Made by a program: the position numbers and the translations under genes. DNA of 64,000 bases, taken from Nitratireductor arenosus (GTDB lineage Bacteria > Pseudomonadota > Alphaproteobacteria > Rhizobiales > Rhizobiaceae). Of the stretch, positions 1 to 8,543 are shown piece by piece (the first letter of the stretch is position 1; every line of letters starts with the position of its first letter). The stretch lies in assembly GCF_009742725.1 (NCBI RefSeq), contig NZ_WPHG01000002.1:930001-994000 (forward strand), read 5' to 3'. The notes beneath the pieces were generated by a model. It ran no database searches. It was not told where the DNA came from and saw only the letters and a list, made by a program, of their open reading frames with translations.

Positions 1-284
1 CGGCCGGCCGGCTGCGTAAAAAATCCGCGCGCCGCGCCGAAAACATCCGCCACATCCCCGGCGGGGATGCCGTGGTTCACGAGATAGAAGAAGCCGACAT
101 CGTTCAGCGCCTTGCCGATCTCGGCGGCGACGCGTTTCTTGTCGGCGTCCGTGCCGTCCCTGAACCCCTGGAAATCAACCAGCGGCACCTGTGTGAAGGG
201 GATCGACTTGGCAGGCGGCACCGCGCCGGTGGTTACGCCAGCCGGTCCGCTGTCGGAATGGGTGGATGAAATCGTTTCGGTCAT
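1..284 (-). CDS. 2-oxoglutarate/Fe(II)-dependent oxygenase, isopenicillin N synthase family (N-terminal part only)
   Basis: An open frame reads on the minus strand from an ATG at 284 to the left edge without a stop, giving about 94 residues. A strong Shine-Dalgarno sequence (AAGGAGGA) lies seven bases before the ATG. After about 25 low-complexity residues the protein has the hydrophobic IPFTQVPLVDF segment and then GFFYLVNHGIP. That is the signature of the N-terminal domain of the isopenicillin-N-synthase-like non-haem iron oxygenases. The HxD...H iron ligands and the 2-oxoglutarate arginine would lie outside the window, so activity and substrate cannot be judged. It diverges from the operon starting at 716 and may share its control region. 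Confidence 0.8.
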   Translation of the reverse strand, partial: MTETISSTHSDSGPAGVTTGAVPPAKSIPFTQVPLVDFQGFRDGTDADKKRVAAEIGKALNDVGFFYLVNHGIPAGDVADVFGAARGFFTQPAG

Positions 285-415: not shown

Positions 416-456
416 ACTATAAAACTAACTTTATAGTTGTATCAGCATACTGTCAA
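416..456 (-). promoter_or_regulatory. Candidate promoter and operator of the divergent oxygenase gene
   Basis: On the minus strand TTGACA (456-451) is followed after 15 bases by TATAAA (435-430), a plausible though short-spaced sigma70 promoter. A perfect dyad, ACTATAAA-N6-TTTATAGT (416-437), overlaps the -10. A second small dyad, GTAT-N4-ATAC (439-450), sits between the two hexamers. The stretch is strikingly AT-rich against its surroundings. The dyads look like repressor or activator half-sites; the regulator is not encoded in the window. Confidence 0.5.
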
Positions 457-544
457 GCGTGACGGGAATTGCCGGCGAAGGCGGGTCGACCGGAATCGTC
501 GGCTTTAGACAAATTCCCCTATAAATTGCATTAAATAAATTACA

Positions 545-573
545 TTGACTTTTGGTTGTATCTAAATTCTAAT
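545..573 (+). promoter_or_regulatory. Near-consensus sigma70 promoter of the aroA-like/pst-like operon
   Basis: TTGACT (545-550), a 17-base spacer and TCTAAT (568-573) form a promoter matching the consensus at 10 of 12 positions. Within the spacer lies GTTGTATC (555-562), an exact copy of the octamer at 436-443 on the oxygenase side. One regulator may therefore bind both promoters. The predicted transcript would have a leader of about 135 bases before the start chosen at 716. Confidence 0.55.
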
Positions 574-715: not shown

Positions 716-2041
716 ATGACAATCGCACCCCCCGCCGTTTCCGCCCGTGGTCGATCGCCAATCTTCGAGCCCAGCCTGCCGGGTTCGAAATCCCTCACCA
801 ATCGGGCGCTGGCGCTGGCGGCGGCGCGCAAAGGCAAGACGCGGGTGGTGGGGGCGCTGCATGCCGATGACACCGTGCGGTTCGCCGACTGCATCAACCG
901 GTTCGGCGGTCTGTCGGTTGCGGCCGACACATGTCGGGCCGCCTTCCATGTGGAGAATTCGTGCCCCGGCGAGCGACCGCTCGCGCCGCATGAGCCGCTC
1001 GATATCGGCGCCGCCGGGACACCGGCCCGCTTCTTGTTGTCGATGGCCGCGGACGCCGAGGGCGAGACGACCATTACCGGAACGAGGCGGCTTTGCGAGC
1101 GGCCGATGGCGAGCGGCATCGAGGCGTTGCGGGCGCTCGGTCGCCCGGTCTTGGAAACCGGCAATCCGGGATGCCTTCCCGTGCGCATCGTCGGCGGCCG
1201 ACCGACCGACACCTATTGGCGGGTCGACGGCTCGGTCTCGTCCCAATTCACCAGCTCCATGCTGCTATCGGCCGCGCGGCAGGATGCCGATCGCGGTCCC
1301 GTTCACGTCGAGGCGACCGGAAATCTGGTCTCGCGTCCCTATGTCGATATGACGGTCCAGACCATGCGCGCGGCCGGCATCGATATCGGTGCGGTCGGGC
1401 CGCAAACCTGGCGTGTGCTTCCCCAACGGCCCGACGTCGCGTCGATCGCGGTGGAACCGGATGCTTCCGCGATGTCCTATTTCCTCGGCGCGGCCGCCAT
1501 TCTCGGTGGCGCGGTCCGGATTTCGGGCGTGGGCAGTTCCTCCGCGCAGGGCGATGTCGGCTTCGTTCATGTGCTGGAAGAAATGGGATGCGCGGTGTCG
1601 GTTACGCCGACCGACATTGAACTGCGCGGGCCCGAAGGCGCCCTGCGCGGCATCGAGGTCGATCTGGAGACCATGCCGGACATGGTTCTCACGCTCGCCG
1701 TCGTGGCCGCGTTCGCGCAAGGCAGGACGAAAATCGTCAACATCGCCAATCTGCGCCTGAAGGAATGCGACAGGCTTCATGCGGCCGCCCAGGAACTTCA
1801 ACGCATCGGCATTCGCGCCCAGGAAGGTCCGGACTGGCTGGAGATCGCGCCGGACGGAACCGGCCCGCGGCCCGCCTCGGTGCACACCTATGACGATCAT
1901 CGCGTCGCCATGGCGTTCTCGCTCGCTGCCTTGACGAACAAGGAGATCACGATCGAGGACCCCGCCTGCGTGGCGAAGTCCTTTCCAGATTACTGGAGCG
2001 AATATGCGCGTCTGGCCGAATCCTATGGTCTCGCCCGTTAG
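716..2041 (+). CDS. EPSP synthase (AroA)-like enolpyruvyl transferase, operon-borne paralogue
   Basis: The 441-residue protein covers the whole EPSP synthase fold. Motifs visible are PGSKSLTNR (Lys25, Arg30), ADDTVRF, GAAGTPARF (residues 98-106), GSVSSQFTSSMLL, EPDASAMSYF, RLKECDR and YDDHRVAM. EPSP synthases move the enolpyruvyl group of phosphoenolpyruvate to shikimate-3-phosphate. Here the LGNAGTAMRP loop is changed (Asn to Ala, Ala-Met to Pro-Ala), which fits a specialised paralogue. The ATG at 716 was chosen because GGTGA precedes it and homology begins there; a frame from 596 adds 40 unrelated residues. It is the first gene of an operon with a methyltransferase, an iPGM-like mutase and an oxyanion importer, so a role outside aromatic amino acid synthesis is inferred. 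It could still be the only AroA of the cell. Confidence 0.85.
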   Translation: MTIAPPAVSARGRSPIFEPSLPGSKSLTNRALALAAARKGKTRVVGALHADDTVRFADCINRFGGLSVAADTCRAAFHVENSCPGERPLAPHEPLDIGAAGTPARFLLSMAADAEGETTITGTRRLCERPMASGIEALRALGRPVLETGNPGCLPVRIVGGRPTDTYWRVDGSVSSQFTSSMLLSAARQDADRGPVHVEATGNLVSRPYVDMTVQTMRAAGIDIGAVGPQTWRVLPQRPDVASIAVEPDASAMSYFLGAAAILGGAVRISGVGSSSAQGDVGFVHVLEEMGCAVSVTPTDIELRGPEGALRGIEVDLETMPDMVLTLAVVAAFAQGRTKIVNIANLRLKECDRLHAAAQELQRIGIRAQEGPDWLEIAPDGTGPRPASVHTYDDHRVAMAFSLAALTNKEITIEDPACVAKSFPDYWSEYARLAESYGLAR

Positions 2042-2071
2042 TTGGCTGGCAGCCGCGCCCGGGAGGAAACG

Positions 2072-2833
2072 ATGCAAACCTCATCCACGCATTACCGTGA
2101 CGAATATGACAAGACGCTGGTGGCGCAATGGGACGAGCTGCTTGGCTGGACGGATCGACGCGCCGCCGAGGGCAGTTTTCTGGCCGACCTGTTGAGCGCG
2201 TGCCAGGTCCGCTCGGTGCTGGACACGGCCACCGGAACCGGTTTTCACGCCGTGCTGTTGTCGCAGGCCGGGTTCGCCGTCACCGCAATCGACGGAGCGG
2301 CGGAGATGGTCGAACGGGCCAGGCGCAACATCGCCACCATGGCCGGCCGGGCCGTGTCCTGCGCGGTCGGCGATTGGCTCGACCACGAAAGCCTGCCGGC
2401 CGGCCCCTTCGACGCGGTCATCTGCATGGGCAACTCGATCGCGCATCTGTTTTCGCGCGCCGATCTTGATCGTGCCCTTTGCAATTTCCGGCGGCTGGTT
2501 CGCGATGGAGGCACACTCGTGCTCGACCATCGCAACTACGACGCCATTCTCGCCGGCCGGATATCGGCGCAGGACCGTACCTATTGCTGTACGGGCCTCA
2601 AGGCTTCGGTCGACCTTGCCGTGGTCGGGCGGGACGTTGTCGACATCACCTACCGGACGGCCGGGCATGCGCCCGCCACCATTCGAACGCACGCATGGAC
2701 AACCAGTGAGGTCGGCAAGGCGATCGGGACCAACGGCTTTGACGCGCACGCGCTCCACGGCCCGCGCGGGGCGGCTTTCGATCCGGACCGGTCCGAATTC
2801 GTCATCCATGTCGCCACGGCTGCGGATCGATGA
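2072..2833 (+). CDS. SAM-dependent N-methyltransferase, glycine/sarcosine methyltransferase-like
   Basis: The 253-residue class I methyltransferase starts at an ATG behind GGGAGGAA. It shows VLDTATGTGFHAV (SAM-binding motif I), AIDGAAEM (motif II acidic residue), ICMGNSIAHL and LVLDHRNYD. The last two are typical of bacterial glycine and sarcosine/dimethylglycine N-methyltransferases, which make glycine betaine. Such enzymes methylate small amino acids, so an amino-acid-like amine is the likely acceptor. The cysteine pattern is not that of the ArsM arsenite methyltransferases. Its stop overlaps the next start by four bases (ATGA), indicating translational coupling to the mutase gene. Family assignment is good; the substrate is unknown. 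Confidence 0.8.
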   Translation: MQTSSTHYRDEYDKTLVAQWDELLGWTDRRAAEGSFLADLLSACQVRSVLDTATGTGFHAVLLSQAGFAVTAIDGAAEMVERARRNIATMAGRAVSCAVGDWLDHESLPAGPFDAVICMGNSIAHLFSRADLDRALCNFRRLVRDGGTLVLDHRNYDAILAGRISAQDRTYCCTGLKASVDLAVVGRDVVDITYRTAGHAPATIRTHAWTTSEVGKAIGTNGFDAHALHGPRGAAFDPDRSEFVIHVATAADR

Positions 2834-4326
2834 CCGGGCGGGCCAAAACCGGACTGATCATCCTTGACGGCGCGGGCCTTGCCGCACCGGCGCGCGGCAA
2901 TGTCGTCGACCGCGCCTGCATGCCGGTGCTGTTCGACCTGTTCGATCGTTACGGCATGGTTCCGCTCAGGGCTTCCGGCGACGCCGTCGGGCTGTTCGAC
3001 GGTCAGGCCGGCAATTCCGAAGTCGGGCATCTCACCCTCGGCATGGGCCGCACTGTGGTCTCCTCGCTCGTCGCCATCGATCGCGCCTACCGGTCGGGCA
3101 CGTGGAAGAAAAGCGCCGTCTGGCAGACCCTGCGCGACGAGACGGCCCAAAATGGCCGGTTCCACATTCTTGGCCTTGTGTCCGACGCCGGCGTGCACGG
3201 CCATTGGCGCACTATCGTCCAGGGCGCGGAACTGGCCGGGCGCAGCGGATTTTCCACCGTGGTCGTGCACCCGGTGCTCGACGGGGTCGATGCGATGCGC
3301 GGCTCGGGGCCCGCTTTGCTTGACACCCTGCGCCAGGCGCTGGCGGCGCGGGTTCCGGCGGCGCGGATCGGGGTCGTGATCGGACGGGCCTGGTTCGCCG
3401 ACCGCACCGGAAACCGCGCCCTGGCGCGCCATCTGGTCGATGCGCTTTTAAGCGCCGACGCGCTGCCGCGCTTCGATCGCCGGCAGCTCGAAGAGTTTTG
3501 CCGGGACAAGAGCGAGCGCGATTTTCCCGCTCACAGGGCCGATGCCGACACCCGGCTGACGCCCGGCGAGGCCGTACTGGTCACCAGCCATCGCGCCGAC
3601 CGCGCCGTGCAGACGGTCGAGGCGCTCGCCGCGCGCTGCCGTCCGGCCACGCTGACCAGCATTTCAGAACAGGTGCCGGCCGCGCGCGTCTTTTTTCCGA
3701 CCCGCAGCCTTTCGGGCGGTCTGGCGCAGGCCCTGCAGGCGCGCGGCATCGCGCTGACGCGGATCGCGGAAAACTGCAAATTTCCGCACGTCACCTATTT
3801 CTTCAACGGGTTCCGGCAATCGCTGGGCGAACGGCAAATATCGATCCCCGACACGCCGGGCGGTCCCGAAACCTGCCCGCGCATGCGGGTGGACGAAACG
3901 GTGGACGCCTGCCGCCGGGTGATGACAAGCAGCCGCGAAACCGGGTTCGTCGTCAATATTCCAAATCTCGACCAGGTCGGACATTCCGGCGATGTGGGCC
4001 TGTGCCGGCTCGCGGCCGAAGCGGTCGACCACGCTCTTTCCCAGATTGTCGCCCAGGCCCGTGAAACCGGCTGGACGCTGGCGGTCACAGCCGATCACGG
4101 CAATGCTGAACGGCTTTTGGACGATCAGGGCCGTGGCTTCGGTTCGCATACCGCCAACCCGGTGCCCTTTACCATCGTTACCGCCGACGGCAGCCGGGCC
4201 GACTGGGCGCTTGGCGACGGCGGCCTCGACAACGTCGCCCCGACAATGGCCGCGCTCTTGGGCGTCGATCCGGCCGGGATCTGCGACGCGCCAGCGCTGA
4301 TTTGCAGACAACGGAGCCTGGCATGA
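2830..4326 (+). CDS. 2,3-bisphosphoglycerate-independent phosphoglycerate mutase-like enzyme (divergent)
   Basis: The 498-residue protein belongs to the alkaline phosphatase superfamily and keeps the iPGM two-metal centre: Asp13 (ILDG), the nucleophile Ser63 in GNSEVGH, His123 in SDAGVHGH, Asp381 and His385 in NLDQVGH, Asp422-His423 in TADHGNAE and His440 in HTANP. The substrate-pocket motifs differ from glycolytic iPGM: RYYAMDRD is replaced by GRAWFADRTGNR, FNFRADRARQ by VTSHRADRAVQ, and the PSPKVATYD lid by DTPGGPETC. Intact chemistry with an altered pocket suggests a mutase acting on a different PEP- or phosphoglycerate-like ester. It is coupled by four-base overlaps to the genes on both sides. 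A glycolytic function is possible but less likely from this context. Confidence 0.8.
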   Translation: MTGRAKTGLIILDGAGLAAPARGNVVDRACMPVLFDLFDRYGMVPLRASGDAVGLFDGQAGNSEVGHLTLGMGRTVVSSLVAIDRAYRSGTWKKSAVWQTLRDETAQNGRFHILGLVSDAGVHGHWRTIVQGAELAGRSGFSTVVVHPVLDGVDAMRGSGPALLDTLRQALAARVPAARIGVVIGRAWFADRTGNRALARHLVDALLSADALPRFDRRQLEEFCRDKSERDFPAHRADADTRLTPGEAVLVTSHRADRAVQTVEALAARCRPATLTSISEQVPAARVFFPTRSLSGGLAQALQARGIALTRIAENCKFPHVTYFFNGFRQSLGERQISIPDTPGGPETCPRMRVDETVDACRRVMTSSRETGFVVNIPNLDQVGHSGDVGLCRLAAEAVDHALSQIVAQARETGWTLAVTADHGNAERLLDDQGRGFGSHTANPVPFTIVTADGSRADWALGDGGLDNVAPTMAALLGVDPAGICDAPALICRQRSLA

Positions 4327-5216
4327 TCGTAACGCTGCGCATCGACCCGGACGAACGTGCCGCCGCCGCGATCGGTCTGCTGGTGCCGGAGCCGCCAAAC
4401 ACCGTTCACCAGACGCTGGTCGGGTTTTGCGCCCCCTGCCCCTTGCCCTACCAGATCGTCCGCGAAAGCCAGAGCAGCCAGCGCGCCTATCTGTTCGAGG
4501 GCGATTTCCGCGCAAACCATGAATTTTCCTTCCATTTCGCCGCCGGGACCGAGGCGGGAAAAACCGACGAATTTGCCGATTTCGACAATGCCTACACCCG
4601 GCTTGTCGGCGATCTGTCCGAATTCCTCGATCTCGATGGGCGGGCCGGCGCGGCGGACGGCGATGAGGAAATCGTCGAGGCGGTCGCGCGCCGGTTCAGC
4701 TATGGCGGGCAAAATCCCGACCTGGCGCGACCGGCGACCTTTTGCGGCATCCGGTCGGGCAACTGCGTCGACATCAACACCGCCTTGCTTGCCTGCCTGC
4801 GGGCGGCCGGGCGCCGGGCGGCCTATTTCGCCGGTTTTTATTTCGGCCAGAACCGCACCGGCTGCCGCGCCGACGGCATGCATTGCTGGATCGCCACCGG
4901 GACGGCGGCGCGCCGCAGCGACTGGGACGTCGCGCATTGCCTGAAAGCGGGGCTGGCGCGGCCGGTGCCCGGTCTGAACCCGTTGGGCGGCGTCAGGGCC
5001 GCGTTCTCGCATGGCCGCGGACTGGTTTTCGAGACCGGAACGGCCCGCCTGCCGGCGATCAGCCATTTCACCCGCCCGCGCTGGCTGCTGCCGGACGGCA
5101 GTCTGCCCGAGGCCATCACCAGCGCGCTGCTGGAGCAGCCCATGCACGCGGGCGCGGATACCGTGCGGTGGAAGCACCATCCGGGTGCGGCGAACCAGGC
5201 AACAAGGAGCGCATGA
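4323..5216 (+). CDS. Transglutaminase-like cysteine protein
   Basis: The 297-residue protein starts at the ATG of an ATGA overlap with the mutase gene. A transglutaminase core is visible: Cys148 in GNCVDINTALLACLRAAG, His187 in GMHCWI and an aspartate at 200 or 202 in SDWDV. That is the order and spacing of a Cys-His-Asp triad. The protein is also rich in cysteine outside the active site, including CAPC near the N terminus. Family members act as peptidases, peptide N-glycanases or amide-forming acyltransferases. In this operon amide formation or hydrolysis of a pathway intermediate is the best guess. No signal peptide is seen, so it is probably cytoplasmic. It does not closely resemble the transglutaminase at 52361. 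Confidence 0.65.
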   Translation: MIVTLRIDPDERAAAAIGLLVPEPPNTVHQTLVGFCAPCPLPYQIVRESQSSQRAYLFEGDFRANHEFSFHFAAGTEAGKTDEFADFDNAYTRLVGDLSEFLDLDGRAGAADGDEEIVEAVARRFSYGGQNPDLARPATFCGIRSGNCVDINTALLACLRAAGRRAAYFAGFYFGQNRTGCRADGMHCWIATGTAARRSDWDVAHCLKAGLARPVPGLNPLGGVRAAFSHGRGLVFETGTARLPAISHFTRPRWLLPDGSLPEAITSALLEQPMHAGADTVRWKHHPGAANQATRSA

Positions 5217-6040
5217 TGCCGGCCAGGACGATCGTGATCGCCATTTTGTCCGCCGCGCTGGCGCTCGCCGGTCAGGCCGTGTCGCATGCGCAGCAGGAGG
5301 TGCGCATCGTCGTCACCGGCTCAAGCACGATCGCGCCGCTGATGATGGACATCGCCCAGCGCTACGAGGCGTCGCATCCGGGCGTGCAGGTCGACGTCCA
5401 GACCGGCGGCTCCTCCAGGGGCCTGTCGGACGTGCGGCGCAAACTCGCCGATATCGGCATGGTCTCGCGGGCGCTCGGCAGGGAGGAAGGCGACGTCGCG
5501 GCGACGCGGATCGCGTGGGACGGCGTGGCGCTGATCGTCCATGCGCAAAATCCGCTCGAGCGCTTGTCCGACGACCAGGTGCGGGCGATCTACACCGGCG
5601 AGGTGACGCGCTGGGAGGCGCTCGGCCCCTGGGACGGGCCGATAACCGTCGTCAGCAAGGCCGAAGGCCGCTCGACGCTGGGAATTTTCGTCCACTATCT
5701 CGGTCTCGATATTCGTGACATCCGCGCCCATACCATTATCGGCGACAACGAGCAGGCGGTGAAGGTCGTGGCCGGCAATCCCCGGGCGGTGGGCTACATC
5801 TCGATCGGCGCGGCCGAATATCACGCAAGCGCCATGACCCCGATACGCGCGATCGCGCTTGGTTCCGTCGCACCAACCTCCGCCAATGTCGCAAACGGGT
5901 CGTACCCGGTCAGACGAGAGCTGAACCTGGTGACGTATCCGGACCCGGCGGCTCCGGTCGAAGAGTTTTTGCGGTTTGCCTCCGGAGAACAGGTGCATGA
6001 CCTCATTTCCGAGCATTATTTCTCGCCGGCGTCGAATTAG
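5216..6040 (+). CDS. PstS-like periplasmic oxyanion-binding protein
   Basis: The 274-residue protein has a signal peptide of about 26 residues ending SHA-Q. The mature chain opens with VVTGSSTIAPLM, followed by VQTGGSSRGL and KAEGRSTLGIF. These are the three anion-binding segments of phosphate-type (PstS) binding proteins. Substrate is inferred as phosphate or an analogue such as arsenate; the sequence alone cannot separate them. The ATG at 5216 sits six bases after AAGGAG; an ATG at 5213 is also possible. The next gene starts inside its end. Confidence 0.8.
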   Translation: MPARTIVIAILSAALALAGQAVSHAQQEVRIVVTGSSTIAPLMMDIAQRYEASHPGVQVDVQTGGSSRGLSDVRRKLADIGMVSRALGREEGDVAATRIAWDGVALIVHAQNPLERLSDDQVRAIYTGEVTRWEALGPWDGPITVVSKAEGRSTLGIFVHYLGLDIRDIRAHTIIGDNEQAVKVVAGNPRAVGYISIGAAEYHASAMTPIRAIALGSVAPTSANVANGSYPVRRELNLVTYPDPAAPVEEFLRFASGEQVHDLISEHYFSPASN

Positions 6041-6908
6041 GTGGCACGGGACCCCGAACGCGCTGAAAGACGCCGTCTTCGTCGTCGTCTTGTGGGCCTC
6101 GGGCGTTCTGGCGATCGGAGCGATGGCCGGCGTTTTGATCGTGCTGGCGATCGGTTCCGCGCCGGCCCTGTCGCAGGCCGGCCTGGCCGCATTCGTCCTG
6201 GGAGCCGATTGGTATCCCACCGCCGGCGAATTCGGGCTGGTGGCGATGGTTGCGGCCACGCTCGCGGTTTCGGCCGGGGCACTGCTGGTCGCCGGGCCGC
6301 TTGGAATTTTGTGCGCGGTCTACATCCGCTACTATGCCGGCGATCTCGCCGGGGCCGCCTTTCGCGTGGTGCTGATGACCCTGGCCGCCATCCCCTCGGT
6401 CGTCTACGGCCTGTGGGGCATGACGGTGCTGGTGCCGCACATTGCCGCGTGGCAGCCGCCGGGCACGTCGCTTCTGGCCGGCGTCGTCGTCCTGTCGATC
6501 ATGGTGCTTCCGACCGTGGCCGTGCTGGCCGAGGCGGGCCTGCGCCAATTGCCGTCGTCGCTCTATCTCGGCAGCCTGGCGCTCGGATGCGCACGCCACG
6601 CCGCGATCAAGCGCATCGTTCTGCCGTCCGCGAAAGGGCCGGTCGCAGCCGCCTGCATGCTCGGGCTGGCCCGGGCGCTTGGCGAAACGATGGCCGTGCT
6701 GATGGTGGTCGGAAACGCCGTCGCCATGCCCGACAGCCCGTTTGCGTCCGTGCGCACGCTGCCGGCCAACATCGCGCTCGAGATGGCCTACGCGATCGAT
6801 GTGCACCGGTCGGCCCTGTTCGTTTCGGGCCTGGTGCTGATGGCCATGGTCGGCCTGCTGCTTGCGATGCGCTGGTATTGGGGCGGGCCCGATGACCCGC
6901 AATTTTAG
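5997..6908 (+). CDS. PstC-like ABC transporter permease
   Basis: The protein is about 303 residues with six predicted membrane segments. The EAA loop region is visible as LYLGSLALGC...IKRIVLPSAKGPVAAACMLGLARALGETMAVLMVVGN, matching PstC permeases. It forms the membrane channel with the PstA-like protein for the substrate delivered by the PstS-like protein. The chosen start (ATG 5997) lies 44 bases inside the binding-protein gene and follows a GGAG; an earlier ATG at 5976 is weaker. The N terminus is arginine-rich. In the operon it overlaps both neighbours. Confidence 0.85.
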   Translation: MTSFPSIISRRRRIRWHGTPNALKDAVFVVVLWASGVLAIGAMAGVLIVLAIGSAPALSQAGLAAFVLGADWYPTAGEFGLVAMVAATLAVSAGALLVAGPLGILCAVYIRYYAGDLAGAAFRVVLMTLAAIPSVVYGLWGMTVLVPHIAAWQPPGTSLLAGVVVLSIMVLPTVAVLAEAGLRQLPSSLYLGSLALGCARHAAIKRIVLPSAKGPVAAACMLGLARALGETMAVLMVVGNAVAMPDSPFASVRTLPANIALEMAYAIDVHRSALFVSGLVLMAMVGLLLAMRWYWGGPDDPQF

Positions 6909-7725
6909 ACCTTTCGCCAACGATTTCCTGGTACGGGCCGCGGTAGCGGCGGTGGTGCTCGTCCTGGCCGCCATCGTGCTGCATGTCGTCACGCGCGGCG
7001 CCGCGCTGGTGACGTGGGAATTCCTCACCACCGCGCCACGGTCGGCCGGGCGCGCCGGAGGCATCGCGCCGGTGCTTGTCTCGACCGTGGCGGTAACGGC
7101 GGTGGCGCTGGCGGCGGCATTGCCGCTGGCGGTCGGAGCCGCCGTGTTCCTGGTCGAGGCGGTGCGCCCGGAGGCGACGGCTGCGCGCCTGACCAGGGGC
7201 TGTCTGAGTGTGCTCGCCGCGGTTCCCTCGATCGTGTTCGGCCTGGCCGGCAATATGATTTTTTGCGACTGGCTCGGTTTTGGCTTCTCCATCCTTGCCG
7301 GCGGACTGACCCTGGCCCTGATGATCCTGCCGATTGCGGCCTGTGTGGCGGAAACCACCTTGCGCATGCATGGCGAAGACCGCAGGGCGGGTTACGCGCT
7401 CGGCCTGCCGCAGCGGCGGATTGTCTGGTCGATCATGCTGCCGGCGGCGGCGCCGGGCATTTTCGCCGGGCTGGGGCTCGGCTTCGGACGCGCGGTCGCC
7501 GAAAGCGCCGCTCTGATCTTCACCAGCGGCTACGTGGTGAGGATGCCGGATTCGGTGTTTGATTCCGGGCGGACCCTGGCGGTCCACATCCTGGATTTGG
7601 CGATGAACGTTCCGGGCGGGGACGGCAACGCATTTGCCACCGCCACCGTGCTTTTGGCGTCGGTGGCGGCGGTGGTTGCGCTGTTTACGGCATTGGACGG
7701 CAAGCGAGGCAGGGATTTCATATGA
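6892..7725 (+). CDS. PstA-like ABC transporter permease
   Basis: The 277-residue membrane protein partners the PstC-like permease. The PstA-type core is seen as VPSIVFGLAGN, then ALGLPQRRIVWSIMLPAAAPGIFAGLGLGFGRAVAESAALIFTSG, containing the cytoplasmic EAA-type coupling helix that docks on the ATPase. The ATG at 6892 overlaps the upstream gene by 17 bases. The last bases overlap the ATPase start (ATATGA). Overlaps throughout suggest strict co-expression of importer and biosynthetic genes. Confidence 0.85.
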   Translation: MTRNFRPFANDFLVRAAVAAVVLVLAAIVLHVVTRGAALVTWEFLTTAPRSAGRAGGIAPVLVSTVAVTAVALAAALPLAVGAAVFLVEAVRPEATAARLTRGCLSVLAAVPSIVFGLAGNMIFCDWLGFGFSILAGGLTLALMILPIAACVAETTLRMHGEDRRAGYALGLPQRRIVWSIMLPAAAPGIFAGLGLGFGRAVAESAALIFTSGYVVRMPDSVFDSGRTLAVHILDLAMNVPGGDGNAFATATVLLASVAAVVALFTALDGKRGRDFI

Positions 7726-8543
7726 ATATTCAAACCACCGGCGCCGCGAAAGCCGTTCCGCCACCGGGGCGCGGCGAGGAAGGCCGGATCCGGGTCGAAA
7801 ACGTCAACGTCGCCTATGGCGCCATCAAAGCCTTGTCGGACGTGACCTTGTCGATCCCGCCGCGGCGCATCACCGCGCTGATCGGACCGTCGGGCTGCGG
7901 CAAGACGAGCCTGCTGACCTGCGTCAACCGGCTGATCGACCTGATCCCGGGCGCGAACGCGACAGGTCGCATCTTTTTGCGTAAAACGGATGTGCTGGCG
8001 CGGGACGCCGACCTGTTGCGGTTGCGCAAACGGGTCGGGATGGTTTTTCAGAAGCCGAACCCGTTCCCGTTCTCGATTCGCCGGAACTTCGATATCGTGC
8101 TGACCGAGTTCGGCGTGCGCCGGCGGGACGACCGGGAAAAGCGGATCGACGAATGTCTGCGCGCCGTCGGCCTGCACACGGAAATCGGTCACCGGCTCGA
8201 CATGTCCGCCTGCGCGCTTTCCGGCGGCCAGCAGCAGCGCCTGTGCATCGCCAGGGCGCTTGCAACGCGTCCCGAAATTCTGCTCCTCGACGAACCGTGC
8301 AGCGCGCTCGATCCGATGTCGACGATGACGATCGAACGATTGCTGCTCGACCTCAAGGACAGCGTCACACTGGTGATCGTCACCCACAATCTTTCGCAGG
8401 CAAGACGGATCGCCGACGAATGCGCGCTGTTTTGGACGGAGTGCGGAACCGGTTATCTGCTCGAACACGGGACGATGGCCGATTTGACGGACCGGCCCAA
8501 GAACCAGGTCACGGCCGACTACCTCCACGGACGAGTGGCCTAG
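7722..8543 (+). CDS. PstB-like ABC transporter ATPase
   Basis: The 273-residue ATPase has Walker A GPSGCGKTS, a Q-loop in GMVFQKPNPFPFSI, signature LSGGQQQRLCIARALA, Walker B ILLLDEPCSALDP and switch His in VIVTHNL. The Q-loop wording is characteristic of PstB phosphate importers. It energises uptake through the two permeases. No phoU, phoB or phoR follows, unlike normal pst operons, so this is unlikely to be the housekeeping phosphate system under PhoU signalling. It is the last gene before the dispersed repeat. Confidence 0.9.
   Translation: MNIQTTGAAKAVPPPGRGEEGRIRVENVNVAYGAIKALSDVTLSIPPRRITALIGPSGCGKTSLLTCVNRLIDLIPGANATGRIFLRKTDVLARDADLLRLRKRVGMVFQKPNPFPFSIRRNFDIVLTEFGVRRRDDREKRIDECLRAVGLHTEIGHRLDMSACALSGGQQQRLCIARALATRPEILLLDEPCSALDPMSTMTIERLLLDLKDSVTLVIVTHNLSQARRIADECALFWTECGTGYLLEHGTMADLTDRPKNQVTADYLHGRVA

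Follow-up and report, generated by a model that had tools for sequence, protein, structure and literature searches.

The intergenic region between a 2OG-Fe(II) oxygenase gene and a divergently oriented operon of Nitratireductor arenosus is, as judged from its sequence, a real control region of the ArsR type that is conserved and contains two predicted operators, one of them strong and the other weaker. It probably keeps an uncommon C-As gene set silent in the absence of an arsenic compound, and we consider it likely that a single ArsR-family protein represses the two divergent promoters located there. The analysis covered a stretch of 64,000 nucleotides (the window; G000:C8:930001-994000, where G000 is the host's own genome of 4.8 Mb) and the DNA to its left, for which L002 position p corresponds to window position p minus 12000. 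The following genes surround the control region:

Left of the window, beyond arsR: folD-like stretch, named by eye only
L002:8737-9069, minus strand: arsR-type regulator gene, start at about -2931 in window numbering, 3.3 kb left of the dyad
Left of the window, beyond the LysR gene: ArsP-type permease gene
L002:10299-11183: LysR-type regulator gene adjoining the oxygenase gene
L002:11244-12284, minus strand: whole 2OG-Fe(II) oxygenase gene, extending beyond the window's left end
1-284, minus strand: 5' part of the 2OG-Fe(II) oxygenase gene (Pfam DIOX_N and 2OG-FeII_Oxy, reading frame)
716-2041, plus strand: EPSP-synthase (AroA)-like gene, BsnM-like (Pfam PF00275 and TIGR01356 above cut-off)
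2072-2833, plus strand: methyltransferase gene (Pfam Methyltransf_25)
2830-4326, plus strand: phosphoglycerate-mutase-like gene, BsnN-like (Pfam Metalloenzyme and iPGM_N; TIGR01307 at 272 bits, cut-off of 331 not reached)
4323-5216, plus strand: transglutaminase-like gene (Pfam PF01841)
5216-8543, plus strand: PstS-, PstC-, PstA- and PstB-type importer genes (NCBIfam cut-off reached by the PstC model only)

The right-hand operon runs in this order from the EPSP-synthase-like gene to the PstSCAB-type importer and ends at 8543. On the left-hand side, the gap between the divergent arsP and lysR genes (L002:10227-10298) contains a conserved AAAAGCTTTTAT stretch without a clear ArsR operator, and no operator stands out before the arsP that neighbours arsR.

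The initial annotation had described an AT-rich island with a main dyad, a smaller dyad and a duplicated octamer as a shared divergent control region of the oxygenase and the operon, and had considered an ArsR-type repressor for the main dyad. The motif positions are correct (dyad at 416-437, GTAT-N4-ATAC as GTATCAGCATAC at 439-450, GTTGTATC at 436-443 and 555-562), and the island is apparent from a GC content of 0.32-0.49 in 100-base windows from 401 to 600, compared with mostly 0.56-0.73 around it. The notion of a shared divergent control region is supported, and its predicted elements are arranged as follows:

416-437, no strand: operator 1, a predicted ArsR site formed by the 22-bp dyad ACTATAAAACTAACTTTATAGT and covering the oxygenase promoter's -10
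428-456, minus strand: predicted sigma-70-type oxygenase promoter (TTGACA at 456-451, N17, TAAAGT at 433-428), found by a consensus scan
436-443, plus strand: GTTGTATC copy 1, in the oxygenase promoter spacer, by itself not judged functional
545-573, plus strand: predicted promoter of the AroA-like operon (TTGACT, N17, TCTAAT), read by eye
555-562, plus strand: GTTGTATC copy 2, in the operon promoter spacer, by itself not judged functional
568-589, no strand: operator 2, a predicted ArsR site formed by the weaker dyad TCTAATAAACTAGTTCTGTGGC and covering the operon promoter from -10 to about +1

Hence, each of the two inverted-repeat operators overlaps a predicted -10 element. The ArsR interpretation of the AT-rich dyad gains support from the arsR gene left of the window and from the same operator at arsP-linked relatives.

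Operator 1 has the structure ACTATAAA-N6-TTTATAGT and is the sole perfect copy in the 4.8-Mb genome. Footprinting of the control region was done with one other species, Nitratireductor alexandrii (strain Z3-1, L009), which also has the operon and in which operator 1 is identical at 22/22 positions and the wider segment 416-442 at 27/27, whereas the flanks are less alike (64/101 identical for 305-415 and 43/67 for 444-510). Some perfect dyad with 8-bp arms and a spacer of 0-12 was found in 122/3000 dinucleotide shuffles of 416-573. When matrices from operators of other genomes were applied, operator 1 took rank 1 of 75,979 positions (window plus 12 kb to the left), and its score was matched by 0/3000 shuffles of 285-443. 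The consensus scan yielded two promoter-like sites compared with 0.5 expected; the second, weaker one is located at 445-416. The TGTCAA of the oxygenase promoter is found at unchanged distance in N. alexandrii.

Operator 2 reached rank 2 of the same 75,979 positions with matrices solely from other genomes. Its score amounts to 16 bits compared with 34 bits for operator 1, its symmetry is only partial, and shuffles of 444-715 attained the score in 12/3000 cases, or 8/3000 with a larger matrix. In N. alexandrii the site reads TCTAATAAACTAGTTATGTGGC and scores higher than in the host. It extends past 573, the right end of the region flagged by the initial annotation, and was not among the motifs listed there. 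The operon promoter beneath it did not appear in the consensus scan because its second hexamer lacks the A that the scan rule demands at position 2. In N. alexandrii the two hexamers and their spacing are retained, and 545-589 is identical at 42/45 positions. The operator centres are 152 bp apart in the host (416-589) and 204 bp apart in N. alexandrii (L009:2046-2271), a difference of about five helical turns that leaves the phase about the same, which may be chance. The AT-rich stretch 511-545 upstream of the right-hand -35 is mostly kept in N. alexandrii and may represent an UP element or a site of another kind.

With up to three mismatches the dyad pattern occurs at two places in the 4.8-Mb genome. 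The second place, ACTATATAACCAGTTTTTTAGT with two mismatches, is situated just upstream of a second, distant ArsP-family gene, and a similar site precedes the N. alexandrii copy of this distant arsP (G002:C37). Among 101 related genomes, the pattern with at most two mismatches was found at 47 places in 23 genomes compared with 141 for a reversed control, hence counts of the bare pattern are uninformative by themselves. The same applies to a looser 16-base pattern, which gave 10 forward and 9 reverse places in the own genome, below the 28 and 36 of its control. The spacer ACYARN (on one strand) is present at 8 of the 47 places, and these adjoin arsR-arsP (four; G001, G048, G067, G074), arsP (two; G000, G002) or the present cluster (two; G000, G002), a post hoc rule that was noticed once the list was in view. 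Among the other 39 places without ACYARN, 0/17 examined had an arsR or arsP relative within the retrieved loci.

A matrix was built from three sites that do not adjoin any arsR, namely the window site and those at the two distant arsP genes. It was applied to the DNA upstream of the genes for 36 further ArsR homologues (loci for part of 46 listed matches plus homologues from further searches), which were regarded as arsP-linked when an arsP relative was present within 1.5 kb. A score of at least 15 was obtained for 18/22 arsP-linked arsR upstream regions and for 0/14 unlinked ones (Fisher 1.6e-6), and for 14/18 arsP-linked regions when the four loci first found via the dyad (G001, G048, G067, G074) were left out (Fisher 7e-6), P values that overstate independence because the homologues are related. 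At a threshold of 12 the proportions were 20/22 and 1/14, while a site scoring 15 is missing upstream of 4/22 arsP-linked arsR genes. The arsR genes of the host and of N. alexandrii, which were excluded from the 36, have upstream scores of 1.5 and 10.0. The 18 sites of other genomes give the consensus ACTATATAACTAGTTATATAGT. According to the matrix, the clusters of Kiloniellaceae, G500 and Streptomyces described below have no such operator that stands out, and among open-licence full texts no paper was found with both ATAACTAG and ArsR.

The repressor would most likely be the ArsR encoded at L002:8737-9069. This protein matches HTH_20 and HTH_5 above the Pfam cut-offs and the NCBIfam metalloregulator model with 46.9 bits, the cut-off of 55 not being reached. 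Matches in the own genome comprise the protein itself and then four with 41, 40, 32 and 34% identity, and it is the own-genome ArsR closest to the operator-bearing group. The arsR promoter bears a single good half-site, GACTAGTTTTATCGC, which is also found in N. alexandrii; it ranks 17-33, is equalled in 55/3000 shuffles and scores under a chance-like stretch in the gap that separates the adjacent arsP from lysR (rank 12).

The protein has the cysteines Cys74, Cys92 and Cys93 and no later one. A Cys at 97-100, near the third arsenite ligand of AfArsR, was found in 14/14 unlinked compared with 2/22 arsP-linked ArsRs (1/18 without the four dyad-found loci), and two further arsP-linked ArsRs have a Cys at 101-102. 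The best match among solved structures is 6j05, an ArsR whose cysteine pair aligns with Cys92-Cys93. SpArsR, which has the cysteine pair alone, is described in two papers as responding to MAs(III) and not to As(III) (PMC13236881, PMC11868830). Since the left-hand ArsR likewise has the pair without the third arsenite ligand, its inducer is probably an organoarsenical, and probably a trivalent one. As a separate observation, the third C-terminal Cys at 97-100 goes with a missing arsP neighbour and might serve as a genome-level marker for arsenite versus organoarsenical sensing.

In the scheme that we infer for DNA binding, repression, the identity of the binding ArsR, the inducer and the operon product, an ArsR dimer would occupy operator 1 (416-437) in the absence of the inducer and block the oxygenase promoter. 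ArsR at the weaker operator 2 (568-589) would block the promoter of the AroA-like/methyltransferase/mutase-like/transglutaminase/Pst operon, and the same ArsR would also control the second, distant arsP, which has a full site. An arsenical, probably a trivalent organoarsenical, would bind Cys92-Cys93 and take ArsR off the DNA, and the genes would then be expressed together. It might well be possible, and we propose it tentatively, that the C-As operon of the cell, the 2OG oxygenase and the ArsP exporter are gated by a repressor with a preference for trivalent organoarsenicals, which would thereby sense the organoarsenic product of the cell itself or of a neighbour.

Other explanations were weighed against repression of both promoters by an organoarsenical-sensing ArsR. 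The same operators could be relieved by inorganic arsenite, in which case the operon would be a detoxification or arsenate-handling route instead of an organoarsenical response. Cys74 is a possible third ligand and the Kiloniellaceae cluster includes arsenite oxidase subunits, but the Cys at 97-100 that marks all unlinked and few arsP-linked ArsRs is missing, and the pair-only SpArsR speaks for MAs(III); overall, arsenite appears a somewhat unlikely inducer. It is unlikely that ArsR acts on the oxygenase promoter only, via operator 1, with operator 2 being a chance likeness to an AT-rich -10 and the operon being constitutive or otherwise controlled. The halved score, the partial symmetry and the shuffles that reach the score of operator 2 would fit this explanation; however, rank 2 among all positions scanned and the preserved, even stronger site in N. 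alexandrii argue against it. Control by the LysR-type protein (L002:10299-11183), alone or together with ArsR, is suggested by the position of its gene as the nearest regulator gene and by 83% identity in N. alexandrii. However, we regard it as improbable, because LysR does not explain why the dyad also occurs at arsR-arsP operons and at distant arsP genes, and no LysR relative was detected in the six stretches L077-L082 (tblastn, E 1e-3).

A GntR-family regulator had been considered in the initial annotation for the two exact GTTGTATC copies near both promoters. A repeated 8-mer occurred in 748/5000 shuffles of 416-573 (15%) and in 4098/5000 of 285-715, hence the pair is not above chance. In N. 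alexandrii the octamers read GTTGTATT and GTTGTATG with the last base changed at both places, GTTGTAT was not found within 150 bp of six other operators checked, and 0/10 left-hand proteins scanned belong to the GntR family. GTTGTATC was therefore rejected as a regulator site, and the involvement of GntR is highly improbable. The suggested search to the left of the window returned an ArsR gene and, among the ten proteins scanned, no GntR, and conservation before the orthologous operon, assessed in N. alexandrii only, applies to the main dyad and not to the exact octamers or GTAT-N4-ATAC. The latter reads GTATTGACGCCC in N. alexandrii, where the dyad is lost, and 528/1000 shuffles contain some perfect 4-N4-4 dyad, which led to its rejection as a regulatory element. 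Two further readings made by eye were also dismissed: of a PhoB box only the CTGTCA half is present, which is the complement of the -35, and a LysR T-N11-A motif is at odds with the dyad's even symmetry.

Returning to ArsR control of both promoters, the right-hand genes have relatives in arsenic-related surroundings. The AroA-like protein shares 46% identity with a homologue from Streptomyces whose gene has arsenic genes in its neighbourhood, and a Streptomyces plasmid carries relatives of the EPSP-synthase-like/mutase-like gene pair with arsR, arsC, ACR3 and Pst genes nearby. A Kiloniellaceae contig combines pair relatives with an ArsR, the two subunits of arsenite oxidase and an oxygenase of 69% identity, while G500 has pair relatives together with phosphonopyruvate decarboxylase, Pst genes and an ArsR; the pair is also present in L010, L011 and L017. 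Bisenarsan formation in S. lividans requires bsnM (EPSP synthase), bsnN (phosphoglycerate mutase) and bsnJ (phosphonopyruvate decarboxylase), and BsnM and BsnN are proposed to turn arsenate into arsonopyruvate (PMC12159101, in which Cruz-Morales 2016 is cited as an earlier paper). No phosphonopyruvate decarboxylase (BsnJ) was found among the eight operon proteins scanned, hence the product probably differs from bisenarsan. Alphaproteobacterial bisenarsan-like pairs are present in the window (716-8543), in L010/L043/L044 (Kiloniellaceae) and in L017 (G500). The top NCBIfam model for the methyltransferase (2072-2833) is glycine/sarcosine N-methyltransferase, with 164 bits and the cut-off of 350 not reached, which may hint at an N-methylated product.

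For the AroA-like protein, matches with E up to 1e-80 were obtained in 1/397 order genomes (the own one) and 2/385 class genomes (the own one and G500), samples from which N. alexandrii or the Kiloniellaceae genome may be missing. A search of the phylum gave 27 others among 398 genomes with 38-42% identity, which are taken for housekeeping AroA, and the operon's AroA was not found in G001 and G003 at E 1e-60. Open-licence full texts, judged by title, included none on an organoarsenic EPSP-synthase operon in Alphaproteobacteria and none on arsenic regulation in Nitratireductor.

Few arsenic natural products exist, and the control region, on sequence evidence alone, ties the bisenarsan-like pair of an alphaproteobacterium to a sensor of arsenic. 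This link backs an arsenic assignment for the operon, the family matches of which suggest the shikimate pathway, glycolysis and phosphate uptake. If the tentative sensing of an own or neighbouring product is true, the region would represent a switch through which an arsenic natural product is sensed outside the actinomycetes, with the whole pathway being turned on in answer. Moreover, the two-cysteine, ArsP-linked ArsR group gains a testable operator, which is of use for building organoarsenical biosensors and in the search for more arsenic pathways.

Compared with known systems, the region resembles AfArsR/SpArsR-type repression in the inverted repeat over core promoter elements and in a winged-helix ArsR that has two adjacent cysteines in its C-terminal part. 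The left-hand ArsR agrees with the SpArsR type in its cysteines, with the pair equivalent to Cys95-Cys96 of AfArsR and without an equivalent of Cys102. The region differs from these systems by its ACTATATAACTAGTTATATAGT-like operator and by the predicted control of an oxygenase and a C-As-type operon and not just of resistance genes. The arsR-arsP operons of Hyphomicrobiales-level relatives share the operator, a related ArsR (43-57%) and the ArsP partner; however, their site precedes arsR, whereas the best host site precedes the oxygenase and a half-site is found at the arsR promoter. With the bisenarsan (bsn) cluster of Streptomyces lividans (PMC12159101) the host operon shares the EPSP-synthase-like and phosphoglycerate-mutase-like gene pair, but neither a phosphonopyruvate decarboxylase nor a polyketide synthase is seen among the host operon genes, and the host has genes for a methyltransferase, for a 2OG oxygenase and for a Pst-type importer.
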